A stretch of 33,015 nucleotides of DNA, from the NCBI GenBank assembly GCA_020848615.1, contig JADLHW010000084.1:1-33015 (forward strand). The letters run 5' to 3'. Positions within the stretch are counted from its first letter, which is position 1, and every line of letters begins with the position of its first letter. Positions 17,415-32,891 of this stretch are shown here, piece after piece. Source of the DNA: Thermoleophilia bacterium (GTDB taxonomy: Bacteria; Actinomycetota; Thermoleophilia; Miltoncostaeales; Miltoncostaeaceae). The notes beneath the pieces were generated by a model, which saw only the letters and a program-made list of their open reading frames with translations, made no database searches and was not told the origin of the DNA. Both the position numbers and the translations under genes were made by a program.

Positions 17415-17427
17415 CGGGGCCGGTGGC

Positions 17428-17889
17428 TCAGGCCCCCGGCTTGGCGACCATCGCCCACACCACCACGATCAGCATGATCACCTCGGCGATGCCGACCGCC
17501 AGGCCGGCGCGGGCGAGCGACCGGGCGCGCGGGCCGTCGGCGCCGCCCTCGGCGACCGCCGCACGGATCCTCCTGCCCTCGGAGACGTGCCACGCCAGGG
17601 CGATCACCAGGCCGATGACCCAGCCGGCGAACCCGATGGACACCCAGGCGTCGCCGTACTCCCAGTTCCCCTCGTGCACGGCCCAGGCGCCGGAGGCCAG
17701 CAGCAGGATCGCCGCCGGGGCGAACACCCGCGTGCCGGCGTAGTCGCCGGCCTCGCTCAGCGCGACCACCTTCGCCGGGTCCCGCGACCCCCACGCCCAG
17801 AACGCCAGGGCCGTGAACACGATCCCCCCGCCCAGCCACGCCGCCGCCATCACGACGTGCACGATCACCAGTGCCTCGTATCCGGACAT
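17428..17889 (-). CDS. DUF2269-like integral membrane protein
   Basis: The 153-residue protein has four predicted membrane helices: ALVIVHVVMAAAWLGGGIVF, then APAAILLLASGAWAV, WVSIGFAGWVIGLVIALAW and AVGIAEVIMLIVVVWAMV. The first helix, with its VHVxxAAxWLGG pattern, matches small DUF2269 or CopD-like membrane proteins, where this His can bind heme or metal; no function is established. I chose the ATG at 17889, for which a run of G (GAAGGGGG) lies six bases upstream. The ATG at 17895 would have that run directly against it. It may be cotranscribed with the TauE-like gene upstream, which ends 54 bases earlier. Confidence 0.75.
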   Translation of the reverse strand: MSGYEALVIVHVVMAAAWLGGGIVFTALAFWAWGSRDPAKVVALSEAGDYAGTRVFAPAAILLLASGAWAVHEGNWEYGDAWVSIGFAGWVIGLVIALAWHVSEGRRIRAAVAEGGADGPRARSLARAGLAVGIAEVIMLIVVVWAMVAKPGA

Positions 17890-17943
17890 CTCCATCCCCC
17901 TTCGCGCTTCGGGTGATGGTACGTCGGGGCCGGTCCCGGTGCG

Positions 17944-18855
17944 TCAGGCGGTGGGGGCCTTCGTTCGCGGCGACTCGACGAACCGCCGCAGGGCCGGGGG
18001 CGCGTACCGGCCGCCGCGCACCGTGCTGAGCGTGAGCACCAGGACGCCCACCGACGCGATGGCGAGCGCGATCTCCGGCCCGCCGGGCGGTTCCCAGATC
18101 GCGATGCCGGAGGCCACCAGGATCACGGCGAGTCCCAGGCGAAGTGCCCGGTCGGGGATGTGGACGGTCCAGGACGCTCCCACCAGCGAGCCGGGGATCG
18201 ACCCCAGCAGCAGCCAGCCCAGGGCGTGCATGTCGACGTTGCCGGCGACGATGTGGCCGGTGCCCGCCACCCACAGCAGTGCCGCGGCATGGGCGAGGTC
18301 GGTGCCCACCACGGTGGCGGGGCGCATCGAGAAGGCGGTGAGCATGACCAGCGCGAAGAAGATCCCGCTGCCCACCGAGGTGAGGCCCACCAGGAACCCG
18401 CCGATGAGGCCCGTCGTCACGGCGATCACCTTCGCGCGGCGATCCATGCGCAGGCCGTAGCGCTCGATCTCCCGGGACCGCGCCACGGTTCGCAGCACCA
18501 TGCCGAGGCCGCCCAGCAGGAGGGCGGCGCCCAGCACGCGGGCCTCCAGGCCGTGCTTGTCGGCCGACTCCCCGTGGATCCACGTGGCCGCGGCCACCCC
18601 CACGAGTGACGCGGGGGCGCTGCCGATGAGCATCCAGGCGGTGAGGGTGAGGTTCACGACGCCCTGCCGCCGGTGCCGCCAGGCCGCCGCGGTCTTGAAG
18701 ATCGCCCCGTTCGCGAGGTCCGTGCCGACGGCGACGGTGGGCTGGAACCCCAGGAACAGCACCAGCACGGGGGTCATCAGCGATCCGCCGCCGACGCCGG
18801 TCGCCCCCGCGAGGGCGCCGATGCCGAGACCCACCAACACCAGCTGCCAGGTCAC
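17944..18855 (-). CDS. TauE/SafE-family membrane permease
   Basis: The 303-residue protein has about eight membrane helices in two similar halves, each opening with a Gly-rich motif: GIGALAGATGVGGGSLMTPV near the N-terminus and GLIGGFLVGLTSVGSGIFF in the middle. Each is followed by a VAVGTDLAN or VVGTDLAHA segment. This internal repeat defines the TauE/SafE (DUF81) family, linked to export of sulfite, sulfoacetate or other organic anions. No sulfur gene is visible nearby, so the substrate is unknown. Start GTG at 18855 has AGGAACGAG upstream. The following P-loop kinase gene lies on the same strand, 62 bases upstream. Confidence 0.83.
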   Translation of the reverse strand: MTWQLVLVGLGIGALAGATGVGGGSLMTPVLVLFLGFQPTVAVGTDLANGAIFKTAAAWRHRRQGVVNLTLTAWMLIGSAPASLVGVAAATWIHGESADKHGLEARVLGAALLLGGLGMVLRTVARSREIERYGLRMDRRAKVIAVTTGLIGGFLVGLTSVGSGIFFALVMLTAFSMRPATVVGTDLAHAAALLWVAGTGHIVAGNVDMHALGWLLLGSIPGSLVGASWTVHIPDRALRLGLAVILVASGIAIWEPPGGPEIALAIASVGVLVLTLSTVRGGRYAPPALRRFVESPRTKAPTA

Positions 18856-18917
18856 GTGCGTCTCGTTCCTGGGGTCGCCCTCATCACCGGTCCGCGCGGC
18901 ACCCTAGCGCCCGTGGC

Positions 18918-19409
18918 TCACCACCCCGCGGCGGCCAGGATGCGGGACGCCACCTCGGCGGGCGGCGCGTCGCCGTCGACGTCCACGGCGCCGGGCACCG
19001 GGACCGCGTCCCGGGCCATCGCCAGGTGGCCGTCCCGGTCGTCCGGGGCGTCGCGGCGCGCCAGGCGGCGCGCGATGACGGCGGCGGGCACCTCCAGCCG
19101 CACCACGGTGAGCGTGGCGCCCGGCGGCAGCGCCGCCTCGACGGCCTCCAGGTGCCCGGGGTCCGGCAGGAAGCGCGACGCCACGACCTCGCGGATGCCG
19201 GCGTCCCGGAAGCTCGCCAGCGCCGACGCGAGGTTCCAGGTGAGCACCTCCCGCACCGTCGCCCGCGCCGGGTCGGGACGCACCCACGCGAGCCAGTCGA
19301 GATCCACCAGCGCGTACGGCCGGGGACCGGCCTCCAGGAGGTCCCCGATGGCCATGAGCACCGTGGTCTTGCCGGAGCCGGGCGGCCCGGTGACCAGCAG
19401 CACCCGCAT
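18918..19409 (-). CDS. P-loop NTPase, small kinase-like
   Basis: The 163-residue protein starts MRVLLVTGPPGSGKTT, a Walker A loop at residues 8-16 (K14, T15). VDLDWLAWV follows at the usual second-strand position. A later segment, VVRLEVPAAVIARRLARRD, looks like the lid and nucleobase-side arginine helix of small-molecule kinases (gluconate, shikimate or adenylate kinase-like). The substrate is not recognisable. The ATG at 19409 overlaps the glgA stop by one base, so it is the third gene of a glgC-glgA unit. A role in the glycogen pathway is possible but is inferred only from this coupling. Confidence 0.72.
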   Translation of the reverse strand: MRVLLVTGPPGSGKTTVLMAIGDLLEAGPRPYALVDLDWLAWVRPDPARATVREVLTWNLASALASFRDAGIREVVASRFLPDPGHLEAVEAALPPGATLTVVRLEVPAAVIARRLARRDAPDDRDGHLAMARDAVPVPGAVDVDGDAPPAEVASRILAAAGW

Positions 19410-20809
19410 CAGGCGGCGAGTTCGGCGAACAGCTCCGAGTAGGCGCGGGCCGATGCGTCCCAGGAGCTGTCGTGGCCCATGCCCGCCAGCTGGATCGCCC
19501 GCCAGCGGGCCGGGTCGCGGAACGCCGTGGCCAGGTCCTGGAACGCGGCGGCCAGGGCGGCGGGCGTGGGGTCGTCGAACAGGAAGCCGTTCTCGGCGGT
19601 CACCGTGTCGGCCAGGCCCCCGGTGCGCCGCACCAGCGGCACCGCGCCGTACCGCATCGCGATGAGCTGCCCCAGGCCGCACGGCTCGAAGCGGCTGGGC
19701 ATCGCGAACGCGTCGCACCCGGCGTAGATCCGCTGCGCCAGCGCCGCGTCGAAGCCGATGCGAACGGCGACCATCCCGGGGTTCGCCCGGGCGAGGTCGG
19801 TGAACGCGTCCTCCAGCCACCCGTCCCCCGACCCCAGCAGGGCGATGCGGGCGCCGTCGTCCAGCATGGCGGGCGCCGCCTGCAGCAGCACGTCGAGGCC
19901 CTTCTGCTCCACCAGCCGCGCCACGACGCCCACCAGGGGCGTGTCGTCGGCGACGTGCAGGCCCATCTCGGCGGCGAGCGCCGTGCGGTTCGCGGCCCGC
20001 GCCCCGAGCGTGCCCGCGGTGAACGTGGCGGGGATGCGGGTGTCGGTCGCGGGGTCGAACGCGGCGGGGTCGATGCCGTTGACGATCCCGGCGACCGCGT
20101 CGCCCCGGTCGCGCAGCACGCCGTCCAGGCCGAAGCCGCCCTCGGGCGTGGTGATCTCCCACGCGAAGGTGGGGCTCACGGCGGTCACGCGGTCGGCGGA
20201 CGCCAGGGCCCGGCCCAGGAGGTTCACCGAGACGATGTCCGGATCGCCGGGCGCGGGCACCGACGGCAATCCGTGCCACGGCGCGAACCCGGCCTCCCGG
20301 ATGCCCTGGTACGCCATGTTGTGCACGGTGAGCACGGTGCGCACGTGGGCGTACACGGGGTCGGCGTCGCGCAGCTGGGCGAGCCGGAGGATCACGGGCG
20401 AGGCGTGCCAGTCCTGGGCGTGCACCACGTCGGGGATCCACCGGTCGTGGTGCAGGTCGGCGAGCGCCGCGTCCGCCAGCAGCATGTACCGGTCGGCCTC
20501 GTCCGGGCCCCCGTACAGGGGGGACCCGGTGAGCGGCGCGGCGTCCACCAGCCGGGTCTGGACCTTCGGGTGGTGGGGGAACGGCTCCGCCAGCAGGCAC
20601 ACCTCCACGTCGCCGGTGCCCCAGCGCACCCGGTCCCGCCACGCCACGCGGGCCCCGCGGTGGGGCATGACCCCCTGGGCGCGGGGCATCACGAGCCGGA
20701 TGTCGTGGCCCAGCTCCGCGAGGGCCACCGGCAGCGCCCCCGCGACGTCTCCCAGCCCGCCGACCTTGGCGTACGGCGACGCCTCGGCGGCGACCATCAT
20801 GATCCTCAT
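19409..20809 (-). CDS. glgA: Glycogen synthase (ADP-glucose, GT5)
   Basis: GlgA transfers glucose from ADP-glucose to the growing alpha-1,4 chain. The 466-residue protein is of the bacterial GT5 type: the N-terminal MRIMMVAAEASPYAKVGGLG has the K-x-G-G ADP-glucose loop (K15, G17, G18). HAQDWHASPVI, TVHNMAYQGI, VNGIDPAAFDP, VARLVEQKGLDVLL and the catalytic-site RFEPCGLGQL with TGGLADTV all follow in order. Its ATG at 20809 overlaps the glgC stop by four bases, and its own stop overlaps the kinase gene. Length is normal (about 470). This is not the GT4 GlgM type found in many mycobacteria and streptomycetes. Confidence 0.95.
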   Translation of the reverse strand: MRIMMVAAEASPYAKVGGLGDVAGALPVALAELGHDIRLVMPRAQGVMPHRGARVAWRDRVRWGTGDVEVCLLAEPFPHHPKVQTRLVDAAPLTGSPLYGGPDEADRYMLLADAALADLHHDRWIPDVVHAQDWHASPVILRLAQLRDADPVYAHVRTVLTVHNMAYQGIREAGFAPWHGLPSVPAPGDPDIVSVNLLGRALASADRVTAVSPTFAWEITTPEGGFGLDGVLRDRGDAVAGIVNGIDPAAFDPATDTRIPATFTAGTLGARAANRTALAAEMGLHVADDTPLVGVVARLVEQKGLDVLLQAAPAMLDDGARIALLGSGDGWLEDAFTDLARANPGMVAVRIGFDAALAQRIYAGCDAFAMPSRFEPCGLGQLIAMRYGAVPLVRRTGGLADTVTAENGFLFDDPTPAALAAAFQDLATAFRDPARWRAIQLAGMGHDSSWDASARAYSELFAELAA

Positions 20810-22104
20810 CCGGCCGCCTGCACCGTGCCGCCGGTGGGCACGCGGCCGCGCTTGGGGAAGTCCTTCTCGCCGACCTCGGGGTCGATGCGGCAGTTCCGCC
20901 CGACGTGCGCGCCGGCCGGGACCACCGCCCGCTTGCCCACCAGGGTGATCCCGGTGTTCAGCCGGCCCGGCTCGAGCTCGTTGGGGATCGTCATGTCCGG
21001 GCCCATCCCCACCTGCGCGTCGACGCCGATGATCGCCTCCTTGTCGACGATCACGTGGTCCAGCACCGCCCCGGACTCGACCACCGAGTCGAACATCACG
21101 ATGGAGTCGCGCACCACGGCGCCGGGCTTCACGATGACCCCGGGGGACAGCACCGACCGCTCCACCACGCCCTCGATGCGGCAGCCGTGGGAGATCAGCG
21201 ACTGGCGCACCACCGCCTGGGAGCCGACGTAGCCGGGCGGCCGCTCCTCGGACTTGGTGTGGATGAGCCACCCGCGGTCCGACAGGTCGATCTCCGGCTC
21301 GGACTCGAGCAGCTCCATGTTGCAGTCGAAGTAGCTCTGGATGGTGCCCACGTCGCGCCAGTACCCGTCGAACCGGTGCGCGAACACCCGGTCGCCGTCG
21401 GCGATCATGCGCGGCACCACGTCCCCGCCGAAGTCCTTCCGGGAGCCCTCGGTCTCGGCGTCCTCCACCAGGCGGCGGATGAGCGTGTCGGTGCGGAAGA
21501 TGTAGAAGCCCAGCGAGGCCAGGTCGGTCTCGGGCTTCTTCGGCTTCTCCAGCCACTCGGTGATGCGGCCCGCCTTGTCGGTGTTGGCGAGCCCGAAGCG
21601 GTGGGCCTCCTCGATGGGCACCCGCTGCAGCGCGATCGTGCAGTCCGCGTTCTGCTTGAGGTGCTGGTCGATCATCTCCCGGTAGTTCATGGAGTAGATG
21701 TGGTCGCCGCCGAGGATCATCACGTGCTCGGAGTTCAGCTCCTGCAGCTCCTGGATGTTCTGGTACACGGCGTCGGCGGTGCCGCGGTACCAGCCCGCCC
21801 CGCGCCGCCCGAGGTACGGCGAGATGAGCCGCACCCCGATGCTCTGGGAGCGGTCGAGGTCCCACGGCTTGCCCGTGCCGATGTGGTCGTGCAGCGACAC
21901 CGGGCGGTACTGGGTGAGCACCAGCAGGTCGTAGAGCTCCGAGTTCACGCAGTTCGACAGGGCGAAGTCGATGATGCGGTACTTGCCCGCGAACGGGACC
22001 GCCGGTTTCGCGCGCTGCGCGCTCAGGATGCTGAGCCGCTCCCCCTGGCCGCCGGCCAGGATCACCACGACGACGCCCTTGCGCTTGGGCTTCCAGACGG
22101 CCAT
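20806..22104 (-). CDS. glgC: Glucose-1-phosphate adenylyltransferase
   Basis: GlgC makes ADP-glucose from ATP and glucose 1-phosphate, the committed step of glycogen synthesis. The 432-residue protein has the nucleotide motif VVVILAGGQGERLSIL with the allosteric-site arginine and lysine region AQRAKPAVPFAGKYRIIDF. GWYRGTADAVYQNI, HIYSMNYREM, the sugar-phosphate segment EKPKKPE, and a C-terminal left-handed helix domain of hexapeptide type also follow. ATG at 22104 has AAGGAG eight bases upstream; a longer open frame to 22197 lacks one. It leads a three-gene unit glgC-glgA-kinase. Confidence 0.95.
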   Translation of the reverse strand: MAVWKPKRKGVVVVILAGGQGERLSILSAQRAKPAVPFAGKYRIIDFALSNCVNSELYDLLVLTQYRPVSLHDHIGTGKPWDLDRSQSIGVRLISPYLGRRGAGWYRGTADAVYQNIQELQELNSEHVMILGGDHIYSMNYREMIDQHLKQNADCTIALQRVPIEEAHRFGLANTDKAGRITEWLEKPKKPETDLASLGFYIFRTDTLIRRLVEDAETEGSRKDFGGDVVPRMIADGDRVFAHRFDGYWRDVGTIQSYFDCNMELLESEPEIDLSDRGWLIHTKSEERPPGYVGSQAVVRQSLISHGCRIEGVVERSVLSPGVIVKPGAVVRDSIVMFDSVVESGAVLDHVIVDKEAIIGVDAQVGMGPDMTIPNELEPGRLNTGITLVGKRAVVPAGAHVGRNCRIDPEVGEKDFPKRGRVPTGGTVQAAG

Positions 22105-22134
22105 CGGTCCCGCTCCTTCGGTTGATCCTGGGCG

Positions 22135-22140
22135 ATCGTA
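22135..22140 (-). promoter_or_regulatory. Possible -10 box of the glgC operon
   Basis: On the minus strand, TACGAT is found 31 bases before the glgC ATG, agreeing with the TAnnnT form of actinobacterial -10 boxes. Transcription from it would give a leader of about 24 bases that includes the AAGGAG ribosome site. The -35 region is unclear. The rest of the gap 22105-22224 shows no gene. Confidence 0.3.
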
Positions 22141-22224
22141 ACCCGGTGCGGTCCCCTTCGTCGTCCGGTGTACACCCCCTTCGCCGCCTCGTGACACACC
22201 CCGACCGCCCGTGTCGCCCGCTCG

Positions 22225-23358
22225 TCACGGCGAGGGCACCTGCCGAGCCAGAGCCTCCGCGCGCACCAGCACCGCGTCTTGGTGGGGTTGCAGCTCGTGT
22301 CCCGCCATCGCGGCGATGGCCGGCAGGAAGGGGTCCTCGACGCCCGCTCGCTCGCCGGAGAGCTCCTCGATGATCGCGAGTCCGAGGAACGGGGCCATGT
22401 AGCGCGAGTAGCCGCCCTCGTGGCACATCACGAGGTGTCCGCCGCAGAGCCTCGCCGCGGCACCCATGATCGCCCGGGTCATCTCCCGGAATCCCTCGCT
22501 GTGCAGCATGAGGCGGGACAGGGGATCCATCCCGCCGGCGTCGAGCCCCGACGGCACGATGATCAGATCCGGCCGGAATCGCTCGAGCGCGGGAACGACG
22601 ACGCGTTCCATCACGGCGAGGTACGCCCCGGTTCCGGTGCCCGGCGGGAACGGGACGTTGAGGTTCGTGCCGGCGCCTGCGCCGGCGCCGGTCGCGTCGA
22701 TGGCGCCGGATCCCGGCGGGAACGCCGCGTCCTGATGGATGGACACGGTGAGGACCCGCGGGTCCTCCCAGAAGATCTCCTGCGCGCCGTTGCCGTGGTG
22801 GGCGTCCCAGTCGACCACGGCGACGCGCGAGAGGCCGCGCGCCTCCAGCGCGTGGGCGGCCGCGACGGCCGCGTTGTTGAAGATGCAGAAGCCCAGGCCG
22901 TCGGCGGGCCGCGCGTGGTGCCCCGGCGGCCGGACGAGCGCGTAGGCATTGGGGACCAGGCCGTCCAGGACGGCGTCCACCGCCGTGAGCACCCCACCGG
23001 CGGCGAGGGCGGCGATCTCGTCGCCTCCAGCGCCGAAGCACGTCTCGCCGTACGGCGGGCCGACGTTGGCGTCACCCCCGGCACCGGCGCCGAGAGCCGT
23101 GATGCGGTCCAGGTACTCGCCGCAGTGGACGCGCAACAGCTCGTCGCGGGTCGCCGGCCGGGGCGCGATGAGGCGGAGCCGATCCGTGAGACCCGTGACG
23201 TCCAGCAGGTTCTTGATGCGCCGCTTGGCGGCAGGGGTCTCCAGGTGGAGGTCCGGCTCCAGGAACGTCGCCGGCGACGGTGGAAGGACTCCCGCGAAGT
23301 TCCCCGCGTCGTGCCACATGCAGCGCTCGCTCCATATGAGGCCTGTTCGCGGTGTCAT
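22225..23358 (-). CDS. Histone deacetylase-like amidohydrolase (HDAH / acetylpolyamine amidohydrolase class)
   Basis: The 377-residue zinc hydrolase belongs to the arginase-deacetylase fold and is closest to the class II HDAC-like bacterial amidohydrolases (HDAH type). Active-site residues are present: H147-H148 in RPPGHHARPADG, the Asp-His zinc site D183/D185/H187 in VDWDAHHGNG, zinc ligand D273 in PSGLDAGGMDPLSRLML, and the transition-state tyrosine Y317 in CHEGGYS. Substrates in the family include acetylated polyamines, acetyl-lysine-like amides and other short acylamides. ATG at 23358 has GGAGG seven bases upstream. The gene diverges from the amidohydrolase-transporter cluster, whose operator region it may share, so it probably acts on the same compound or a product of it. 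Confidence 0.9.
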   Translation of the reverse strand: MTPRTGLIWSERCMWHDAGNFAGVLPPSPATFLEPDLHLETPAAKRRIKNLLDVTGLTDRLRLIAPRPATRDELLRVHCGEYLDRITALGAGAGGDANVGPPYGETCFGAGGDEIAALAAGGVLTAVDAVLDGLVPNAYALVRPPGHHARPADGLGFCIFNNAAVAAAHALEARGLSRVAVVDWDAHHGNGAQEIFWEDPRVLTVSIHQDAAFPPGSGAIDATGAGAGAGTNLNVPFPPGTGTGAYLAVMERVVVPALERFRPDLIIVPSGLDAGGMDPLSRLMLHSEGFREMTRAIMGAAARLCGGHLVMCHEGGYSRYMAPFLGLAIIEELSGERAGVEDPFLPAIAAMAGHELQPHQDAVLVRAEALARQVPSP

Positions 23359-23489
23359 CCCCCAACCTCCGAGCGTCCGGCGTGGATGCGGAGCGCGTGC
23401 AGGGGCCTTGGACGCAGGGCCCGGTCGGCACCTCGAAATAGCTGCCGAGGGCCGATTGCATCGCGCGTCCGACTCGGGAGATGATGCCC
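23359..23489. promoter_or_regulatory. Divergent promoter region between HDAC-like and amidohydrolase genes
   Basis: About 130 bases separate the two opposite genes. For the plus strand, TTGCAT (23456-23461) and GATGAT (23480-23485) are spaced 18 bases apart and each match -35/-10 partly, with a predicted start near 23492. This would put the GTTCAACATGTTGAAC palindrome about 20-35 bases into the transcript. For the minus strand, CTATTT near 23440 is a weak -10 candidate. No gene or stable hairpin is seen. Confidence 0.3.
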
Positions 23490-25040
23490 ATGTGTTCTGA
23501 GCGTCGCCTGGGGTTCAACATGTTGAACGCAATGGCCACCGCGGGCCGGGACGCGACCACCCCCGATCTCGTGGTCCGTCGGTGTCTGCTCGTTCGGGAT
23601 CCGGCTGCCGCACCGGTCGAGGCCGACGTGCTCATCGGCGCCGGACACGTGCTGGACATCCGTGCCGCCGGAGGGCCCGTTCCGCGGGGCGCACGGGTCA
23701 TCGATGCGTCGGGGCTGCTCGCGATGCCGGGGCTGGTCAACGCGCACACCCACTCCCCTGAGACGTGTCTGCGCGGCATCGCGGAGGGCCGCCCGCTCGA
23801 GCCATGGCTGGCGGCGATGTTCACCGCCGCCGGCCGCTATGACGCCGAGGCGCACGCGATCGCCGCCACCGCCGCGGCGGTCGAGATGGTCCGGACCGGC
23901 GTCACCGGCGTGATCGACCACCTCTGGATGACGCCGCCAAGTCCCGAGGCGATCGACGCGGTCTGTCGCGCCTATGCCGCGGTCGGTATCCGGGCGGTCG
24001 TCGCGCCCCTCGCGAGTGACATCGACTGCAGCGAGGGATTGGCCGGGCGGCTCGGCATCGACATGACCGGGGCCCTGCTCACGGATCTCCTCCCCCTGCT
24101 GCCCGCGGGCGACCACCTGGCGCTGCTCGCGGACGCGATGAGGCGGTGGAACCGGCCGGGCTCGCTCGTGCGCGTCTTCGCCGGTCCGGGAGGCGTCCAG
24201 TGGTGCTCCGATGAGCTCCTGGCCGGAAGCGCCGAGCTGGCCCGTCGCCACGACGCCGGCGTCCACCTCCATCTCGTCGAGACCCTGATCCAGCGCGCCG
24301 CCTGCCGCGACCGATTCGGACGCGGTGCCGCCGAGGCCCTCGACGACCTCGGCGTGCTCGATCGGCGCTGCTCGCTCGCGCACTCGGTGTGGCTGGAGCC
24401 CGGCGATCCTGAGCGGATCGCGACCGCCGGCGCGGTCGTGGTCCACAACCCGGCGGCCAACCTGCGGTTGGGGAGCGGTCTTCCTCCCATCCGGGACCTG
24501 CTCGACGCGGGGGCCACCGTCGCCCTCGGCACCGACGGCTCGGCGTCGTCGGACAACCAGAACCTCTGGGATGCGATCAAGCTCGCGGCGCTCGTCCACA
24601 ACCGCGAGGACCGCTGGGTCACCGGTTCCGAGGCGCTCGCGATGGCGACCGCGGGCGGCGCCGCCGCCATGCTCGTCGGCCCCTCCGCCGGCACCCTGGT
24701 GCCGGGGGCTCCGGCGGACATCAGCCTCGTGGACCTCGCGGGGGACGGTCTCGCAGGGTCCGTGTGCCTAGCGGGTTCCCTCGCGCTCTCCGAAACCGGC
24801 GCCGGCGTCGTCCACGTGATCGTGGCGGGACGCCCCGTCGTCGTCGACGGGCGGTGCATCAGCGTCGACGAGCGAGCGGTGCGAGACGGCCTGCGCGCGT
24901 TGGCCCACGCGCGTGGTGGGCCGGCCGGCGTGGCACCCGAGGCCGCCCGGCTCACGGTCGTCGCCGAGGCATTCACCCGGCTGCGGGGCGCGCTCGTCCC
25001 CGGAGCTCCTCCCGACCACACCCAGGAGGTGTGCCAATGA
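23490..25040 (+). CDS. ATZ/TRZ-type amidohydrolase (deaminase/chlorohydrolase family)
   Basis: This metal-dependent hydrolase of about 500 residues is of the branch that includes guanine deaminase-like, SsnA, AtzB/TrzN and methylthioadenosine deaminases, which remove amino groups from purine or triazine rings. Visible ligands are H86-x-H88 in GLVNAHTHSPETCLRG, His in VHLHLVET, His in SLAHSVWLEPGD and Asp in LGTDGSASSDNQNLWD. The start is unclear. ATG at 23490 has GGGAG nine bases upstream and is used here; ATG at 23520 (MLNAMATAG) and 23532 (MATAGRD) would fit the family's shorter N-terminus and put the palindrome in the leader. The stop overlaps the next gene by three or four bases (ATGA). 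It is the first gene of the transporter unit. Confidence 0.87.
   Translation: MCSERRLGFNMLNAMATAGRDATTPDLVVRRCLLVRDPAAAPVEADVLIGAGHVLDIRAAGGPVPRGARVIDASGLLAMPGLVNAHTHSPETCLRGIAEGRPLEPWLAAMFTAAGRYDAEAHAIAATAAAVEMVRTGVTGVIDHLWMTPPSPEAIDAVCRAYAAVGIRAVVAPLASDIDCSEGLAGRLGIDMTGALLTDLLPLLPAGDHLALLADAMRRWNRPGSLVRVFAGPGGVQWCSDELLAGSAELARRHDAGVHLHLVETLIQRAACRDRFGRGAAEALDDLGVLDRRCSLAHSVWLEPGDPERIATAGAVVVHNPAANLRLGSGLPPIRDLLDAGATVALGTDGSASSDNQNLWDAIKLAALVHNREDRWVTGSEALAMATAGGAAAMLVGPSAGTLVPGAPADISLVDLAGDGLAGSVCLAGSLALSETGAGVVHVIVAGRPVVVDGRCISVDERAVRDGLRALAHARGGPAGVAPEAARLTVVAEAFTRLRGALVPGAPPDHTQEVCQ
23513..23528. promoter_or_regulatory. Perfect 16-bp palindrome GTTCAACATGTTGAAC, probable operator
   Basis: GTTCAACA and TGTTGAAC are exact reverse complements with no spacer. 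The palindrome lies at the start of the amidohydrolase gene, and two related copies lie at the start of the aldehyde dehydrogenase gene (31444-31459 and 31463-31478). No regulator gene is in the window, so the binding protein is unknown. Confidence 0.6.
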
Positions 25041-26068
25041 GACGGTCCCTCAGGGCCGCCGCGGTCGCGCTCGTCGCCCTCACCGCCGCCACCGGATTCG
25101 CCGCCTGCGGCGACGATGAGGAAGCGGGTGCGTCCAGCACCGCGCCATCATCCCTCAAGGTCGCGATGGTGCTTCCCGGTGCGATCAACGACAAGGGCTT
25201 CAACCAGACCGGCTATGACGGACTGAAGGCCTGCGAAGCCGGTGGCGCGACCGTCGCGTTCTCCGAGAAGACGGCGGTGCCCGACTTCACCAAGACCTTC
25301 CAGTCGTTCGCCCGCGACAACGACGTCGTCATCGGGCACGGCTTCGAGTTCGGGGAGATCGCCGCCGAGGTGGCGGACGAGTTCCCCGACGTCACGTTCG
25401 CGGTCACCAGCAATCCGCTCGCGCCCGAGGCGTCGAACGTCGTGCATCTGATGCCGAACAGCACGCAGGGCGCATTCCTGGCCGGCGTTGCGGCGGCATC
25501 GTCCTCCGAGACCGGGAAGCTCGGAGGGATCGCCGGCTTCGACTTCCCGGTGCTGCAGGCCCAGATGACCGCATTCGAGGCCGGGGCCAAGTACGTCGAC
25601 CCCGGGACCACCGTGAAGGTCGTCTACCTGGGCACCTTCGACGACGTCTCCAAGGGGCGTGAGGCCGCGCAGGGGATGGCCGCGTCCGGAATCGACGTCA
25701 TCTACCACATCGCCGACGCCGCGGGCGTGGGGGTGATCAACGGCGCCAAGGCCTCGAAGATCAAGGTCGTCGGCTGGGGCATCGACCAGAACTCGCTCGC
25801 GCCCAACACGGTGATCGCGAGCCAGGTTGTCGACCAGGCCAAGATGATCCAGCAGTTCTGCTCGGAGGCCGCGACGGGCCCGGTGGAGGGCGGCCGGGTC
25901 ATCAGCGACGGCCTGCAGTCCGGCGTCATCGACCTCACGAAGGTCTACAACGAGCCGGCTGAGGTGCAGGCCAAGGTCGACGAGGTCCGGGACGCCATCG
26001 TCGCCGGGGACGTGGAGGTTCCCTCCGTGGGCGGCGACATCCCCGGCTCCGGACCGGACGCCGGGTAG
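25037..26068 (+). CDS. BMP/PnrA-family substrate-binding lipoprotein
   Basis: This is the extracytoplasmic binding component of an ABC importer. The 343-residue precursor has an N-terminal signal with lipid attachment at C24 (TGFAACGDD, a lipobox variant). The mature part shows the PnrA/BMP pattern: VAMVLPGAINDKGFNQTGYDGL, VVIGHGFEFGE, FAVTSNP, GAFLAGVAAASSSETGKLGG, DVIYHIADAAGVGVIN, and IDQNSLAPNTVIASQV at the hinge. Family members bind purine nucleosides; some relatives bind other compounds, so the ligand is only suggested. AGGAGG lies seven bases before the ATG, a strong start. It overlaps the end of the amidohydrolase gene, which suggests the ligand or its product is that enzyme's substrate. 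Confidence 0.92.
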   Translation: MRRSLRAAAVALVALTAATGFAACGDDEEAGASSTAPSSLKVAMVLPGAINDKGFNQTGYDGLKACEAGGATVAFSEKTAVPDFTKTFQSFARDNDVVIGHGFEFGEIAAEVADEFPDVTFAVTSNPLAPEASNVVHLMPNSTQGAFLAGVAAASSSETGKLGGIAGFDFPVLQAQMTAFEAGAKYVDPGTTVKVVYLGTFDDVSKGREAAQGMAASGIDVIYHIADAAGVGVINGAKASKIKVVGWGIDQNSLAPNTVIASQVVDQAKMIQQFCSEAATGPVEGGRVISDGLQSGVIDLTKVYNEPAEVQAKVDEVRDAIVAGDVEVPSVGGDIPGSGPDAG

Positions 26069-26079
26069 GGGAAGCGGTC

Positions 26080-27615
26080 GTGCCGGTGCTGGCCCGCATG
26101 AGCGGCATCGTCAAGCGGTTCGACGACGTGGTCGCCAACGACGGCGTCACCGTCGAGTTCTCCGCGGGCGAGATCCACGTGCTGCTCGGTGAGAACGGCG
26201 CCGGCAAGACCACGCTCATGAACGTCCTCTACGGCCTGTCCCGGCCCGACGAGGGGAACATCGAGCTTGGCGGGCGGCCCGCGGAGATCCACGGGCCGCT
26301 CCATGCCATGCGGCTCGGAGTCGGCATGGTCCACCAGCACCCGTTGCTCGTGGGGCGGCTCACCGTCGCGGAGAACCTGCGCCTCGGGGGAGTGGGCGAC
26401 GGAACGGCGGACGGGCTGCGGGCGGCCGTCGCCGAGGTCACGCGCGTCATCCCCCTCGACATCGACCCGGCCCGCCGCGTCGAGGACCTCCCCCTGTCCC
26501 AGCGGCAACGTCTGGAGCTTGTGCGCTGCCTGGCCCGCGGCGTCCGCCTCCTCATTCTTGACGAGCCGACCGCGGTACTCACCCCGGCCGAGGTGGAGCG
26601 GCTGTTCACCGAGTTGCGATCGCTCACCACCCAGGGCCGGGGCGTGGTCCTCATCACCCACAAGCTCAGCGAGGTCGCGGAGGTGGCCCAGCGTGTCACG
26701 GTCTTGCGAGGCGGTCGCTCGCTGGGCACGACGCTCGCCGGGGAGCGATCGCTCGCGGAGCTGTCGGACCTCATGGTGGGACGGCAGGTCCCGGCGGTGA
26801 GCCACCGGGGCGCCGGGGCCGTCGGCACGGCGCCCCGCCTTCGCCTGCGTGGCGCCCGGGTCGGCGATGAGAATGGGCGGTGCGAGCTCGACGACGTCAC
26901 CCTCGAGGTGCACCCCGGGGAGATCGTCTGCGTGGTGGGCGTCGAGGGGAACGGTCAGCGGGCGCTCGCGGACGTCTGCTTCGGGCGGCGACCGGTGGCG
27001 GCCGGCTCCGTCGAGCTGGATGGAGCGATCCTCCCGCCAGTGGGCGAGTGGCGCCGGAGGGGCGTTCGGCTGGGCCGCGTCCCAGAGGACCGCCGGCACG
27101 AGGGGCTTGTGCTCGACGCGCCCCTGTGGCGGAACCTGCTGCTCGGGCCGATGGCGCCCCCGTCACGGTTCCTTCTGCACCGACGCCGCGCGCTCCGTCG
27201 TGCGCGCCGGTTGCTCACCGAGTACGAGGTCCGGCCCGCGGATCCCCATGCACTCGCTGCGGCACTCTCCGGCGGCAACCAGCAGAAGGTCGTGCTGGCC
27301 CGGGAGCTCTCGGGCGAACCCGGTGCGGTCGTGGCGGTCAACCCGACACGCGGACTCGACGTCGGTGCCCAGCATGACGTCCACCTGCGGCTTGCACGGC
27401 TCCGCGACGACGGGGTCGCGCTCCTCGTGATTTCGACCGACCTGGACGAGACGCTCGCGCTCGCCGACCGGATTGCCGTGCTCTATCGAGGGCGTCTCGC
27501 CGGCCCGTACCCCGCCGACGAGGCCGGGCGCGACCTCCTCGGCCGTCTGATGGCTGGTCTCGGTCCCGGCGAGTCCGAGCCGCCGGGCGCCGGCGTGTCG
27601 GCGGTCGCAGCATGA
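26080..27615 (+). CDS. Double-domain ABC transporter ATPase
   Basis: This 511-residue protein has two fused ATPase domains, as in nucleoside importers (NupA/YufO type). Domain 1 has Walker A GENGAGKTT (37-45), a shortened signature LPLSQRQRLE and Walker B RLLILDEPTAVL. Domain 2 has a degenerate Walker A, GVEGNGQRAL, a full LSGGNQQKVV signature and NPTRGLD in place of Walker B DEPT. These degenerate forms are normal in this family, with only one hydrolysing site. Start GTG at 26080 lies 11 bases after the lipoprotein stop and is preceded by AGGGGAA. The end overlaps the first permease gene by four bases. Confidence 0.93.
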   Translation: MPVLARMSGIVKRFDDVVANDGVTVEFSAGEIHVLLGENGAGKTTLMNVLYGLSRPDEGNIELGGRPAEIHGPLHAMRLGVGMVHQHPLLVGRLTVAENLRLGGVGDGTADGLRAAVAEVTRVIPLDIDPARRVEDLPLSQRQRLELVRCLARGVRLLILDEPTAVLTPAEVERLFTELRSLTTQGRGVVLITHKLSEVAEVAQRVTVLRGGRSLGTTLAGERSLAELSDLMVGRQVPAVSHRGAGAVGTAPRLRLRGARVGDENGRCELDDVTLEVHPGEIVCVVGVEGNGQRALADVCFGRRPVAAGSVELDGAILPPVGEWRRRGVRLGRVPEDRRHEGLVLDAPLWRNLLLGPMAPPSRFLLHRRRALRRARRLLTEYEVRPADPHALAAALSGGNQQKVVLARELSGEPGAVVAVNPTRGLDVGAQHDVHLRLARLRDDGVALLVISTDLDETLALADRIAVLYRGRLAGPYPADEAGRDLLGRLMAGLGPGESEPPGAGVSAVAA

Positions 27616-28709
27616 GCGCCGGCAGGCTCGCCGGATTCGTGCGCTCGGGGGCCGCGGCGTCGGTTGCGGTCAGGACCGCGGCGGCGCTCGCCGCGGCGGT
27701 CGCCGTGGGCGGGCTCGCCCTGATGATCGCGGGGCTGGATCCGGTGGACGCCTACCGCGCCGTGCTGGACGAGGCCGTCGGCTCGTCGTTCGGGATCCGC
27801 TCCAGCCTGCTGCAGGCCCTACCGATCACCATCACCGCCCTTGGCGTTGCTCTCGCGTTCCGTGCAGGGCTGTTCAACCTCGGAGGCGAGGGGCAGATCT
27901 ACGCTGGAGCGCTCGCGGCCGTGTTGGTGGCGCTCCAAGCGCGCGGGCTGCCGTTTCCGGTCCTCGTCCCGCTCATGCTGGTCTTCGGTGCCGTCGCCGG
28001 CGGACTCTGGGGCGGCATCGCCGGCGTCCTGCGCGCCCGCCTCGGCCTGTCGGAGATCATCACCACGATCCTCCTGAACTTCGTTGCCTTCTGGATGGTG
28101 AGCTACCTGGTGCGAGGGCCGATCCAGGATCCGGGTGGCGCGGGGTATCCGTACACCGAGAAGGTCGTGGATGGCGCCCGTCTGCCCGTCATCGGCGACA
28201 CCGTCCCGGCGGGGGTGCTGGTCCTCGCCGCCGTCGCGATCGGCGCTTGGGCGCTGCTGGAGCGCAGCGTGGTGGGGGTCCGTCTGAAGGATGTGGGCGA
28301 GGGGCCCTCGGCGGCCGCGTTCGCGGGCTGGCGCATCGATCGTCAGGTCATCCTCGCCCTCGTGATCGCCGGTGCGCTCGGCGGCCTCGCCGGCGCCGTC
28401 GAGCTGAGCGGCAACCAGCATCGGGTGAGCGACTTCTTCACGCCCGGGTGGGGCTTCGACGCGCTCGCGGTGGCGCTCATCGGCCGGGGCACGATCGCGG
28501 GCTCGGTGGCTGCCGGCGTGTTCTTCGGCGGTCTCCGCAGCGGGATCGACGGCGCGCAGACCTCGGTCGCAGTCCCCGAATCCGTCGGGCAGATCGTCCA
28601 GGGCACGGCGGTGCTCTTCCTCATCGTGGCGAACGCGGACGTCGCCGTGCGCTGGGCGCGACGTATCCGCCAGCCCGGGCACGGGAGGCACCATGCACGC
28701 ACTGCTTGA
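27612..28709 (+). CDS. ABC transporter permease, branched-chain/nucleoside type (first)
   Basis: The 365-residue permease belongs to the BPD_transp_2 family, in the branch of nucleoside importers (NupB/YufP). It has about eight to ten membrane segments, the family segment GLFNLGGEGQIYAGA, and the EIITTILLNFVAFWMVSYLV helix with GP. The coupling-loop region with VGEGPSAAAFAGWRI is typical and docks to the ATPase. Near the C-terminus is GWGFDALAVALIGRG. Its ATG overlaps the ATPase stop. The first about 20 residues are polar and Arg-containing, likely cytoplasmic. The end overlaps the second permease by 17 bases. Confidence 0.92.
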   Translation: MSAGRLAGFVRSGAAASVAVRTAAALAAAVAVGGLALMIAGLDPVDAYRAVLDEAVGSSFGIRSSLLQALPITITALGVALAFRAGLFNLGGEGQIYAGALAAVLVALQARGLPFPVLVPLMLVFGAVAGGLWGGIAGVLRARLGLSEIITTILLNFVAFWMVSYLVRGPIQDPGGAGYPYTEKVVDGARLPVIGDTVPAGVLVLAAVAIGAWALLERSVVGVRLKDVGEGPSAAAFAGWRIDRQVILALVIAGALGGLAGAVELSGNQHRVSDFFTPGWGFDALAVALIGRGTIAGSVAAGVFFGGLRSGIDGAQTSVAVPESVGQIVQGTAVLFLIVANADVAVRWARRIRQPGHGRHHARTA

Positions 28710-29625
28710 CATCCTCACGTCCGGGGCGCTCTACGCCGCCGGCATCCGGCTCGCGGTCCCCGTCTTCCTCGCCGCGCTCGGCGAGTTGGTCGCCGAGCGC
28801 GGCGGACTGGTGAACGTCGGTCTCGAGGGGATGATGCTCGCCGGGGCGTTCGGCGGGGTCCTCGGCTCCTATCTGTTCGACGATCCATGGCTCGGGGTCA
28901 TCACCGGTGTCGTGCTGGCCGTCGTGGTCGCGGCGATCCAGGCCGGGGTGGCCGTGTCGCTCGCGGGAGACCAGATCGTCACCGGCATCGCGCTGAACAT
29001 CGCCGTCCTCGGCGCGACCTCGTTCATGGCGCGAACCGTCTGGACCGACGGGAACGTTCCGCAGGTCGAGGGCTTCGACCCTTGGGCCGTGCCGGGCCTG
29101 TCATCGCTCCCGGGCATCGGCGACGTGGTGTTCGGGCAGGGCGCGCTGGTGTACCTCGCGGCGGCGCTCGGGGCCGTGCTCTGGTGGGTGCTCACACGCA
29201 CGGATTGGGGGTTGCGGCTGCGTGCCTGCGGCGAGGACCCTCGGGCGGCGGACAGTCTCGGCATCCGGGTGATCGCGATGCGCTGGCAGGCGACCCTGAT
29301 CTGTGGCGCGCTCGCCGGGCTCGGAGGCGTCTTCATCTCGCTGGGCGACATCTTCACCTTCAGTGACGGCATGTCGGGCGGTCGGGGGTTCATCGCGCTC
29401 GCCATCGTGATCATCGCCAGGTGGTCGCCGAGCCACCTCGTCCCCGCGGCTCTGCTGTTCGGGGTGTGCGAGGCCCTCGCGCTCCGTGCGCAGGTGACCT
29501 CCGCCGACCTCCCCTACGAGCTGCTCCTCGCGCTGCCCTACGTGCTGACCCTGGCGGTCTACGCCGGTCTGGTCGGCCGAACCCTCCCCCCGGCGGCGCT
29601 CGGCCGCCCCTACGTCCGGAGGTAG
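28693..29625 (+). CDS. ABC transporter permease (second, NupC/YufQ-like)
   Basis: The 310-residue second permease has the family segments GGLVNVGLEGMMLAGAFGGV, ITGIALNIAVLGATSF and LRACGEDPRAADSLGI (the coupling loop), with GRGFIALAIVIIARWSP near the C-terminus. With the preceding gene it forms the heterodimeric channel of an importer with outward-to-inward transport of small heterocycles in known relatives. GGGAGG lies five bases before the ATG at 28693, a strong start despite lying inside the previous gene. Only three bases separate it from the nitrilase-like gene. Confidence 0.92.
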   Translation: MHALLDILTSGALYAAGIRLAVPVFLAALGELVAERGGLVNVGLEGMMLAGAFGGVLGSYLFDDPWLGVITGVVLAVVVAAIQAGVAVSLAGDQIVTGIALNIAVLGATSFMARTVWTDGNVPQVEGFDPWAVPGLSSLPGIGDVVFGQGALVYLAAALGAVLWWVLTRTDWGLRLRACGEDPRAADSLGIRVIAMRWQATLICGALAGLGGVFISLGDIFTFSDGMSGGRGFIALAIVIIARWSPSHLVPAALLFGVCEALALRAQVTSADLPYELLLALPYVLTLAVYAGLVGRTLPPAALGRPYVRR

Positions 29626-29628: not shown

Positions 29629-30501
29629 ATGAGCCCACCCGACACGTTCATGCTCGCCGTCGCCCAACCGCGGTGGCCGCCCGACGGCACGATCCAGGCG
29701 GTCGACGACGCCCTCGGCCTCGTTCGCAGGGCGGCGGCCGAAGGCGCCCGTCTGGTGCTGTTCCCCGAGGCGTACCCGGGCCCCATGCGCGTCGGTGAGG
29801 CGTGCGATCCGGAGCCGTTGATGCGGGAGGCGGCGGTCCGGCACGGCATGGCGGTGTGCTGGAGCCGGCTGGAGCCGGCGACGATCGAGGGCCCGAACCG
29901 CGTGATCCTGCACCTGGTCGACGCGCGTGGCGTGACGCTCGCCCACACTGCCCGCACCCACCCCGCCACCGGCGATGTCCACCCCACGCTCAACGGGTGC
30001 CCCGTCGCGCCGGGCGAGGAGCTCACCGCGGTGGAGCTCGACGGGGTTCTCCTCGGCCTGATGGTGTGCTCGGAGCTGTGGGTGCCGGAGGTGGCGCGCA
30101 TCCTCGCCCTGCGCGGCGCCGAGGTGCTGCTGGCGCCGGCCGGCGGAGGGTTCGGCGCGATCGCGGGGAACTGGCGCCTCGTCGCCCGGGCCCGGGCGAT
30201 CGAGAACCTCTGCCACGTCGCGCTCACCCAGACCCGTTTCGACGGGGAGCCGGGCAGCGCGCTCATCGCCGGTCCCGAGGGGCTCGTCGCCCGCTCGGCG
30301 ACCCACGACCTACTGGTCGCCCCACTGGACCTGGCCCGGGGCCGGGAGCTTCGCTCGCGGGACGACTCCATGGAGCAGCCCAAGACGTTCACCTCCCTGC
30401 CGGGCCTCCTGCGCGCCCGCCGGCCCGAGCTCTACGGCGAGCTCACCGCGCCCCGACCGGACGCCTACCCATACGGCTCGGTCGCCGAGGGCGGCAGGTG
30501 A
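29629..30501 (+). CDS. Nitrilase-superfamily hydrolase with altered catalytic triad
   Basis: This 290-residue protein has the alpha-beta-beta-alpha sandwich of carbon-nitrogen hydrolases (nitrilases, amidases, N-carbamoyl hydrolases). The Glu is E47 in LVLFPEAYPGP and the Cys is C147 in LLGLMVCSELWVPEVARI. The Lys, normally in an RKTH motif, is replaced: the segment reads HTARTHPATG, with R109 at the Lys position. In known enzymes the triad is Glu-Lys-Cys, so this may be a changed active site or a non-enzymatic member. It lies three bases after the second permease and overlaps the ArcS-motif gene by four, placing it in the transporter unit. Cloning-free check of the Arg is possible by alignment alone. 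Confidence 0.83.
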   Translation: MSPPDTFMLAVAQPRWPPDGTIQAVDDALGLVRRAAAEGARLVLFPEAYPGPMRVGEACDPEPLMREAAVRHGMAVCWSRLEPATIEGPNRVILHLVDARGVTLAHTARTHPATGDVHPTLNGCPVAPGEELTAVELDGVLLGLMVCSELWVPEVARILALRGAEVLLAPAGGGFGAIAGNWRLVARARAIENLCHVALTQTRFDGEPGSALIAGPEGLVARSATHDLLVAPLDLARGRELRSRDDSMEQPKTFTSLPGLLRARRPELYGELTAPRPDAYPYGSVAEGGR

Positions 30502-31433
30502 GCGTCTCCCGCGCGGAGCTCGTCGCACGTGGACACGCGAAGATCGCGTCGCCGTTCACCCTGGACGAGGACATGACGTTCCTCTGCCCCCAGGAGAACC
30601 TGGAGGCCATGGACCTGCCGGTGGTCCGCCGGTTCCACCGATGGATCTCCGAGCGCCGGCCGGAAACCGGTCCGGAGCCCGCGGTCCTCCTGCTGCTGCC
30701 CTGCGAGATGCGGAAGCCGTACACGCTCTCGGACGATCATCGCGCGGTCAACGAGGCCCTCATCGCCGCCGGATACCTTCCGGCGGGGCGGGGCGACTGG
30801 CCGGACGGGCTCGCGGCGCATGCGCCGGCGAGACTCCTGTCCAACGCGCCGCTGGTCGGCAAGGGCCTGCGGATCGACCGCGCCGTGATCTCCGAGCCCT
30901 TCGGGATCGTCCCGTACGAGGCCGTCTACCGGTGGCAGGGACGTCCGAGCCCCTGCACGCGGTACGACGACCCCGGCCTGTTCGAGCACCGCGGGATTCA
31001 CTGCTGGTGGCGGCCGGACTGCACGACGGTTCCCGGTCCGCGAGGCGCCCGCTGGGGCGACGCGGAGCGCACCGCCTATGTCGAGGTGCACAACCGGCTC
31101 GCGCGGCTCATGGGCGAGACCCTCGACGCATGGGCGCCTTCGTACCGTCGGATCCTCGCCTATGTCGCCCCCCGCCTGACCCACCGCTCGTTCCTGGACG
31201 ACGTGGCCGGCAGACGTCGGGCGCGGATCCCGGGGGGACGCATGGTCGGCGGTCGGCGGATGCCGCTGCGTGGGGTCGCGGACGACTGGCCGGGGCTGGT
31301 GACGCTCGTGCCGGCGTCCGGGACCTGGCCCGGCCGCACCGGCCGCCTCACCGACCCCGACTGCCTGCGGATGCTGGTCGCGGCGGTCGAGGCGGAGCAA
31401 TCGGACCATGATCCGCAACTCATCCGCCACTAG
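30498..31433 (+). CDS. Stand-alone protein with ArcS-type PC-x3-KPY-x2-S-x2-H motif
   Basis: The 311-residue protein is not a common bacterial family to me. Residues 68-81 read PCEMRKPYTLSDDH, an exact fit to PC-x3-KPY-x2-S-x2-H, the signature I recall for archaeosine synthase (ArcS, DUF5591 core), which in archaea modifies the nitrile of preQ0 in tRNA. Downstream, ISEPFGIVPYEAVYRW, then a Tyr-Asp pair (RYDDP) and EHRGIHCWW, recall the PLGxVPxELE-YD-tG-W order of that core. The usual TGT-like N-terminal part and PUA domain of ArcS are absent. GTG at 30498 overlaps the nitrilase stop by four bases. Function is unknown; an amidine- or amide-forming or hydrolysing role on a nitrile or amide is inference only. 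Confidence 0.7.
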   Translation: MSVSRAELVARGHAKIASPFTLDEDMTFLCPQENLEAMDLPVVRRFHRWISERRPETGPEPAVLLLLPCEMRKPYTLSDDHRAVNEALIAAGYLPAGRGDWPDGLAAHAPARLLSNAPLVGKGLRIDRAVISEPFGIVPYEAVYRWQGRPSPCTRYDDPGLFEHRGIHCWWRPDCTTVPGPRGARWGDAERTAYVEVHNRLARLMGETLDAWAPSYRRILAYVAPRLTHRSFLDDVAGRRRARIPGGRMVGGRRMPLRGVADDWPGLVTLVPASGTWPGRTGRLTDPDCLRMLVAAVEAEQSDHDPQLIRH

Positions 31434-31443: not shown

Positions 31444-31478
31444 CGCCAACATGTTGAAATGATTTCATCATGCTGAAC
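31444..31478. promoter_or_regulatory. Tandem operator-like palindromes before aldehyde dehydrogenase gene
   Basis: Two copies of the 23513-23528 palindrome occur, centred 19 bases apart. Copy 1 (31444-31459) keeps CAACATGTTGAA; copy 2 (31463-31478) reads TTTCATCATGCTGAAC, matching 13 of 16 positions by eye. Between them TGAAAT-G-ATTTCA (31455-31467) is a perfect 13-base palindrome, so the whole block is roughly symmetric. The aldehyde dehydrogenase ATG lies in copy 2. No ribosome site is visible; a leaderless message is likely. Confidence 0.5.
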
Positions 31479-32891
31479 GCCACGGAGACCATCATCCGGG
31501 GGCCCGAGGGACAGGGAGACCTCGGCGCCGTGCGTCTCGCCGACGCCGCCGCTCTCGACGCCACGGTGAGCGCCGCCAAGCGCGAGCAACGCGCGTGGGC
31601 CGCGCTCCCGGTGCGGGAGCGGGCCGACGCCCTCGATCGGGCGGCGTCGCTCCTCGAGCCCCAGGCGGATGAGCTGGGTTCCCTCCTGGCCGCCGAGTCC
31701 GGAAAGCCGATCGGACAGGCGCGACGGGAGATCGGTGGCACCATCTGGCTCCTCCGCGCCAACGCGGACGAGGGGCGCCGCACCGGCGGCCGGGTCCTCC
31801 CCACGGAAGGCAACCCGGGAACGGAGAACGATCTCGCCTACACCCGTCGCGAGCCCCTGGGGCTGGTGGCGGCGATCATCCCGTTCAACTTCCCCGCCGA
31901 GCTGCTGGTCGAGAAGGCGGCGGCCGCGCTCGTCGCGGGCAACGCGGTCGTCGTGAAGCCGCCGCTCGAGGATCCCCTCACGGCGATGCGCGTCGTCGAG
32001 GCGCTGATCGCCGGCGGAGTGCCCTCCGACATCCTGGGCGTGGTCAACGGGGGGCGCGAGACCGGCGCCGCCCTCGTCGCGGATCCCAGGGTCGACGCGG
32101 TGTCACTCACGGGCTCCACCGCCGCCGGGATCAGCGTCGCCGAGGCGTCGGCGCCGCTGTTGCGGCCCCTGCATCTGGAGCTGGGCGGCAACAACGCCTG
32201 CCTCGTCCTCGACGATGCAGACCTCGACCTGGTGACGAGTGAGGTGGCGTTCGGGCGCCTCATGATGAACGGCCAGGCGTGCTCGGCGTCGAAGCGCGTG
32301 ATCGTGCACCGGTCGCGGCACGACGAGCTGGCCGACCGCCTCATCGCGGTGGCCCGCAGCCAAGTCGTGGGCCCGGCCGCCGACGAAACCACCAGCATCG
32401 GGCCGCTCATCACCGCAACGGCCGCCGACCGGGTCCGCAGCCAGGTCGCCGCGGCCGCCTCCGACGGCGCAAGGGTCCTGCACGGCCTCGGCGGCGACGG
32501 ACCGTTCGTCGAGCCCACGGTCATCGGCTCGGTTCCCCCGGGAGCGGCCGTGGCCCGAGACGAGGAGATCTTCGGGCCGGTCTTCACCCTCATCCCGGTC
32601 GGGGGGGACGCCGAGGCGCTCTCCGTGGCGAACGGGTCGAGCTTCGGCCTGATGGCCTCGGTCTTCTCATCCGATCTCGGGCGGGCCCTGCATCTGGCCG
32701 AACATCTGGAGGCCGGAGGGGTCGTCGTCAACGGCAGCGACAACTACCGGCCGCCGGTGATCCCGTTCGGCGGCGTGAAGCGCTCCGGGCTGGGGCGCGA
32801 GGGCCTTGGCTACACGATCGCCGACCTGACACGCGAGAAGACCATCGTGTTCCGGCGTCTGCGCCGCACGGGACGGGAGGTGCGGGAGTGA
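31470..32891 (+). CDS. NAD(P)-dependent aldehyde dehydrogenase
   Basis: The 473-residue protein is an ALDH-superfamily oxidoreductase that converts an aldehyde to its acid. Active-site elements: PFNFPAELL (N140), VVKPPLEDPL (K163), the coenzyme-side TGSTAAG, general base E237 in LELGGNN, and catalytic C271 in MNGQACSASKR. FGPVFTLIPVG, then GVKRSGLGREG near the C-terminus, are typical. By general pattern it is near the succinate-semialdehyde, glyceraldehyde and aminoaldehyde dehydrogenases; the substrate is undefined. Start ATG 31470 gives MLNATETIIRG and lies in the operator-like block, without a ribosome site. It is 36 bases after the ArcS-motif gene and probably has its own promoter under the same regulator. 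Confidence 0.92.
   Translation: MLNATETIIRGPEGQGDLGAVRLADAAALDATVSAAKREQRAWAALPVRERADALDRAASLLEPQADELGSLLAAESGKPIGQARREIGGTIWLLRANADEGRRTGGRVLPTEGNPGTENDLAYTRREPLGLVAAIIPFNFPAELLVEKAAAALVAGNAVVVKPPLEDPLTAMRVVEALIAGGVPSDILGVVNGGRETGAALVADPRVDAVSLTGSTAAGISVAEASAPLLRPLHLELGGNNACLVLDDADLDLVTSEVAFGRLMMNGQACSASKRVIVHRSRHDELADRLIAVARSQVVGPAADETTSIGPLITATAADRVRSQVAAAASDGARVLHGLGGDGPFVEPTVIGSVPPGAAVARDEEIFGPVFTLIPVGGDAEALSVANGSSFGLMASVFSSDLGRALHLAEHLEAGGVVVNGSDNYRPPVIPFGGVKRSGLGREGLGYTIADLTREKTIVFRRLRRTGREVRE

Follow-up and report, generated by a model that had tools for sequence, protein, structure and literature searches.

A stand-alone relative of the archaeosine synthase core in a conserved and probably catabolic gene island of Thermoleophilia

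Gene organization of the locus

The window, meaning the whole stretch of 33,015 nucleotides analyzed here from the genome of a Thermoleophilia bacterium, carries near its end an operon that leads from a deaminase-like amidohydrolase through an ABC importer and a nitrilase-fold protein to a protein with a DUF5591 domain, the core of the archaeal tRNA enzyme ArcS. The features are listed below, with the evidence in parentheses.

22225–23358, minus strand: HDAC-like amidohydrolase, divergent (PDB 5li3, E 7e-104; synteny)
23481–25040, plus strand: TrzA/8-oxoguanine-deaminase-like amidohydrolase, start approximate (NCBIfam PRK08203; PDB relatives)
25037–26068, plus strand: BMP/PnrA-type substrate-binding lipoprotein, ATG start (Pfam PF02608; PDB relatives; alignment)
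26080–27615, plus strand: ABC importer ATPase (Pfam PF00005)
27612–28709, plus strand: ABC importer permease 1 (Pfam PF02653)
28693–29625, plus strand: ABC importer permease 2 (Pfam PF02653)
29629–30501, plus strand: nitrilase-fold (CN_hydrolase) protein (Pfam PF00795, E 2e-17; alignment)
30498–31433, plus strand: DUF5591 (ArcS-core) protein, 311 amino acids (Pfam PF17884, motif, AlphaFold2 model)
30699–30740, plus strand: PCEMRKPYTLSDDH, PC-x3-KPY-x2-S-x2-H motif, residues 68–81 (exact fit)
30867–30977, plus strand: second ArcS-type motif, RIDRAVISEPFGIVPYE...YDDPG, about residues 124–160 (hhalign versus IIISSPLVVPREFELLYPAVNYDTP of AF0587)
31470–32891, plus strand: aldehyde dehydrogenase (Pfam PF00171, E 4e-133; conserved in the island)

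Several neighboring genes of the operon overlap by 4–17 bases. The DUF5591 gene is translated from a GTG start into 311 amino acids plus stop and shares the four bases GTGA with the end of the nitrilase-fold gene. This overlap and the position behind an importer had been pointed out in an earlier note made from the sequence alone; both hold, the importer being represented upstream by a BMP-type binding protein, an ATPase, and two permeases. The deaminase-like amidohydrolase reaches 220 bits against PRK08203, under the 532-bit cut-off of that model. The nitrilase-fold protein keeps the Glu and Cys of the catalytic triad, and the catalytic Lys is replaced by Arg in all eight class-level sequences aligned; the protein of one further locus (L027) retains the Lys. 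Because the usual Lys is missing, the protein may be no standard amidase and has either an altered catalysis or a binding role. Two further gene sets, recognized by reading, lie at 190–3034 and 8027–22197 and fill much of the remaining window: a lactate-utilization set (LutABC-like) and a glycogen/maltodextrin set with branching, debranching, phosphorylase, and ADP-glucose genes.

Homology to the ArcS core

The fit of residues 68–81 to PC-x3-KPY-x2-S-x2-H, which we take to be the motif defining ArcS, is exact, as the earlier note had reported, and PCEMRKPYTLSDDH is the sole match to this pattern and the sole C-x3-KPY in all six frames of the window. The chance expectation is 1.1e-6 per window, and none of 60 random windows with the dinucleotide composition preserved contained a match. 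In an alignment of 19 homologues, C69, K73, P74, Y75, and H81 are invariant and P68 and S78 almost so. These homologues were drawn from eight other genomes of the class as well as from Chloroflexota, an Elusimicrobia-labeled metagenome-assembled genome (MAG), one Lachnospiraceae, and Acetobacteraceae/Roseomonas, and DUF5591 is matched by 19 of the 19.

PF17884 (DUF5591) matches the window protein with 30.8 bits (cut-off 26, E 3.2e-7) at residues 43–88, which correspond to profile positions 1–44 of 150 only (HMMER). Hence, the significant profile match on which the earlier note had staked its proposal exists. It ends early because an insertion of about 30 residues, relative to AF0587 of Archaeoglobus (PDB 2q07), precedes the second motif. 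A profile–profile comparison against AF0587 combined with the Vibrio phage nt-1 protein places the second motif co-linearly with that of ArcS (hhalign probability 75%, E 2.6e-5), VISEPFGIVPYE...YDDPG pairing with IIISSPLVVPREFE...YDTP. The profile of the homologues, in turn, recovers the archaeal AF0587 with E 4e-4, the match lying around the first motif.

When the AlphaFold2 model of the window protein (pLDDT 90.6, pTM 0.90) is compared with a viral library, its best fold match is the nt-1 DUF5591 protein (E 1.2e-4, probability 1.00, 301 aligned columns), the only viral match at E < 0.001; the next, an unnamed protein, follows at E 2.9e-3. Foldseek searches of the PDB with two models gave nothing better than E 0.27 and did not recover 2q07 itself. 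Thus, the PDB comparison gives no confirmation of the fold and the viral one does; judged from the model, a fold common to the window protein and DUF5591 is likely. The nt-1 protein (R9TEI9) is likewise a stand-alone core without PUA, but it is 226 amino acids long, belongs to a phage DNA-modification gene set, and shows about 13% identity when aligned by structure. Searches of viral contigs with the window protein and with the nt-1 ArcS, and of phage records with the window protein, yielded no relatives.

The shortness of the Pfam match would suit a motif that arose by chance in an unrelated protein. Such an origin is exceedingly improbable: only about 1e-6 occurrences are expected, the motif is near-invariant in 19 homologues from several phyla, and second motif and fold concur. 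By sequence, profile, and fold, the homology of the window protein to the ArcS core is almost certainly genuine. The protein belongs to the DUF5591 superfamily and is not an archaeosine synthase. The earlier note had taken the motif as specific to ArcS, but the core is not confined to ArcS: both a phage DNA-modification protein and the bacterial family of the window protein contain it.

Genomic evidence against a tRNA role

A tRNA- or DNA-modification enzyme, that is, a bacterial archaeosine synthase, would account for the motif and for the core homology. Compared with ArcS (NF040592), the window protein shares the motif, the co-linear second motif, and the DUF5591 core, but it lacks the TGT-like and PUA parts, carries the roughly 30 extra residues between the motifs, and has a C-terminal region of its own. 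Within the 311 amino acids, Pfam finds no TGT-like or PUA domain, in line with the earlier description of a free-standing core. Over the stretch also matched by PF17884, the NCBIfam ArcS models score 21–27 bits, far under their equivalog cut-offs of 440–600 (27.1 bits versus 440). The genome, which is 96.5% complete, contains neither TGT (PF01702; controls 14/14 positive) nor QueC, and the gene is surrounded by transporter and catabolic genes. With TGT and QueC missing from the genome and the TGT-like and PUA parts missing from the protein, a tRNA role is very unlikely, and an archaeosine synthase, highly improbable on this evidence, is largely refuted. TGT is also missing from a carrier in another actinobacterial class (G419). 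Most other carriers of the DUF5591 gene do have TGT, so the argument from its absence is limited to these two genomes.

A conserved island in the class

In eight other genomes of the class, the operon is largely syntenic and is seen to be part of a larger island. Its members are the importer, the guanine-deaminase-like amidohydrolase, the nitrilase-fold protein, the HDAC-like amidohydrolase, a hydantoinase, a carbamoyl-amidase-like protein of the isochorismatase fold, an enamidase, a DUF1989 protein, and the aldehyde dehydrogenase; the surroundings that hold the hydantoinase, carbamoyl-amidase-like, enamidase, and DUF1989 genes also contain genes for IclR, AA_synth, a class II aldolase, a second (NMT1-type) importer, and another amidohydrolase. 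In most relatives, the HDAC-like gene stands directly upstream of the DUF5591 gene, unlike the divergent copy of the window. One relative (L015) is without the BMP importer, and another (L016) is a short contig. The island enamidase-like protein has a single PDB match, 2VUN, over its full length (E 1e-92); this nicotinate-fermentation enamidase serves a pyridine pathway, whereas the island protein lies beside hydantoinase and deaminase-like genes.

The contig of the window (C84) ends at 33015, 124 bases past the aldehyde dehydrogenase gene, and the remaining island genes of the same genome reach to within 119 bases of the end of contig C1. Because a relative (L013) has both gene sets contiguous and both contigs end beside them, C84 and C1 probably abut and form one island. 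The neighborhood survey that the earlier note had called for bears out its gene context as far as it went: linkage to the nitrilase-fold gene persists across the class, and linkage to the importer across the class (except L015) and into other phyla. However, only half of the system had been seen, the HDAC-like amidohydrolase, hydantoinase, carbamoyl-amidase-like protein, enamidase, DUF1989, and aldehyde dehydrogenase having been missed.

Distribution beyond the class

The family is rare. It occurs in 10 of 399 genomes of the class (one of them with a short, doubtful match), in 3 of 385 genomes of the class of Roseomonas, and in 1 of 392 genomes of the order of the Lachnospiraceae. In a phylogenetic tree, the window protein groups with proteins of its own class in a well-supported clade (100/99). 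In G419, DUF5591 is accompanied by hydantoinase, carbamoyl-amidase-like protein, enamidase, DUF1989, aldehyde dehydrogenase, aldolase, and an NMT1-type importer; a BMP importer is absent from this cluster. In Chloroflexota and the one Lachnospiraceae, DUF5591 occurs with the importer and/or the deaminase-like amidohydrolase. The Lachnospiraceae gene (L030:10004–10933), from a deer colon MAG, has IclR, the BMP importer, a MATE-like transporter (by reading), and an amidohydrolase as neighbors; this is the cluster in its minimal form, carried by a gut bacterium.

Smaller gene sets also recur in Alphaproteobacteria, where the enzyme set is partly different: in Acetobacteraceae and on a Rhizobium plasmid, DUF5591 lies beside an HpaB-type monooxygenase, a flavoprotein, a decarboxylase-like protein, and NMT1-type genes, and the Rhizobium cluster includes adenosine-deaminase and 8-oxoguanine-deaminase annotations. 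A relative of 4,5-dihydroxyphthalate decarboxylase (L032:3790–4767) stands directly before the DUF5591 gene in Acetobacteraceae and directly after it on the Rhizobium plasmid. An HDAC-like gene of Rhizobium sp. ACO-34A, 55–61% identical to that of the window, lies in two overlapping pieces between annotated genes (L041:21259–22349); it is probably frameshifted and escaped annotation.

The presence of TGT in most other carriers and the shortness of the Lachnospiraceae cluster would agree with salvage, in which an imported 7-deazaguanine precursor has its side group remodeled and is reused in tRNA or in a secondary metabolite; further families of Q-precursor transporters are anticipated by a survey (PMC11130926). 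Salvage is unlikely, as TGT is lacking in the window's genome and in G419, and as hydantoinase, enamidase, aldehyde dehydrogenase, and DUF1989 appear degradative.

The importer and its likely ligand

The binding protein belongs to the same family as BMP/PnrA-type nucleoside and AtzT-type guanine/triazine importers, its PDB relatives being BmpA, BmpD, TmpC/PnrA, and AtzT. Among the solved structures, BmpD and TmpC/PnrA are purine nucleoside binders, and AtzT binds guanine and hydroxyatrazine. The GVDxDQ of nucleoside binders reads GWGxDQ in the window protein, and GWG replaces GVD in all aligned DUF5591-linked binding proteins but that of L030. The Asp of GVD presumably contacts the ribose in PnrA. 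If so, the change from GVD to GWG makes a free base more likely as ligand than a nucleoside, and the sequence thus suggests import of a free base.

Other roles were considered and set aside. All four components match a putative B6 ABC importer of NCBIfam under the equivalog cut-offs, and vitamin B6 as a substrate would not fit with hydantoinase and DUF1989. Ergothioneine use (ErtD) was rejected with the hydantoinase far under the cut-off. A nucleosidase role for DUF5591, an idea derived from the UDG-like fold that we take this domain to have, is disfavored by the changed importer motif. Riboswitches, for 7-deazaguanines or otherwise, were found in none of the clusters with Rfam, supplemented by a lax scan at L030.

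Proposed function

The gene context supports well what the earlier note had proposed, namely that the ArcS core has been recruited to a small-molecule role, and this role is very probably catabolic. A nitrile, amidine, or amide as substrate is a hypothesis by analogy with ArcS chemistry. ArcS attaches lysine to the preQ0 nitrile, and the enzyme of Thermococcus kodakarensis accepts the preQ0 nucleoside without tRNA and refuses the free preQ0 base (PMC11298593). The DNA of phage nt-1 holds nitrile, amide, and amidine forms of 7-deazaguanine, for which an amidohydrolase-type reaction was proposed (PMC6884629). The main reading, with a probability of about 0.4, is that the DUF5591 protein is a cytoplasmic enzyme of a pathway that takes up and degrades a guanine-like heterocycle, with a 7-deazaguanine as the most likely candidate, and that it acts on the C7 group of this compound. 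The assignment of 7-deazaguanine as the substrate is tentative. A scattered bacterial pathway that imports and degrades queuine-, preQ0-, or archaeosine-type bases, with the ArcS core acting at C7 and the enamidase opening the pyrrole-derived ring, is more doubtful still.

Such a pathway, whose reactions, order, and substrate we infer, could run as follows. A free base, be it preQ0 or a relative of archaeosine or queuine, would enter via the BMP-type importer. Its C7 nitrile or amidine would be attacked by the DUF5591 protein in an ArcS-like manner, possibly through a thioimidate at Cys69, to give an amide or acid, the nitrilase-fold and HDAC-like proteins helping. The guanine-deaminase-like amidohydrolase would then remove the 2-amino group. 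The pyrimidine ring would next be opened by the hydantoinase and trimmed by the carbamoyl-amidase-like protein, which would take off the carbamoyl group. Once the second amino group has also gone, a pyrrolinone would be left, a cyclic enamide that the enamidase may convert into an aldehyde, to be oxidized by the aldehyde dehydrogenase. A purine leaves an imidazole-derived ring, and an imidazolone-type enzyme would be expected at this point; a 7-deazapurine leaves a pyrrole-derived cyclic enamide, the opening of which gives an aldehyde and thus fits the aldehyde dehydrogenase.

Several findings count against the main reading: the Pfam match is short and the PDB fold searches gave no match, ArcS of T. 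kodakarensis refuses the free preQ0 base while the importer suggests a free base, the clusters show no riboswitch, DUF5591 is the only cluster member specific to 7-deazaguanines, the nitrilase-fold protein lacks the usual Lys, and the alphaproteobacterial enzyme set is partly different. The deaminase-like protein, hydantoinase, carbamoyl-amidase-like protein, DUF1989, and NMT1-type importer would suit any 2-amino- or 2-oxo-pyrimidine ring. The island might then degrade another guanine-, pterin-, or pyrimidine-like heterocycle, such as guanine, 8-oxoguanine, a pterin, the thiamine pyrimidine, or a triazine-like compound, with DUF5591 keeping its base-binding fold for another chemistry, for example, a different hydrolysis or a decarboxylation. 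The Lachnospiraceae set of importer, amidohydrolase, and DUF5591 alone and the two deaminase annotations of the Rhizobium cluster are also consistent with this. Another heterocycle is a serious contender, if short of even odds; it leaves unexplained why the constant member is a core otherwise known from 7-deazaguanine chemistry and why an aldehyde-forming enamidase takes the place of an imidazolone-type enzyme.

Implications

The ArcS core is known for nucleic acid modification. Its occurrence within a conserved metabolic island in several phyla suggests that the core can act on small molecules as well. Even with another heterocycle as substrate, the island represents a coherent pathway, of which no description was found in the literature searched. 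To our knowledge, no breakdown pathway is known for 7-deazaguanine bases, and the literature searched contains no account of how queuine/archaeosine-type bases are degraded. Should the island act on a 7-deazaguanine, it would represent such a pathway, and the environmental fate of these bases would become directly testable.
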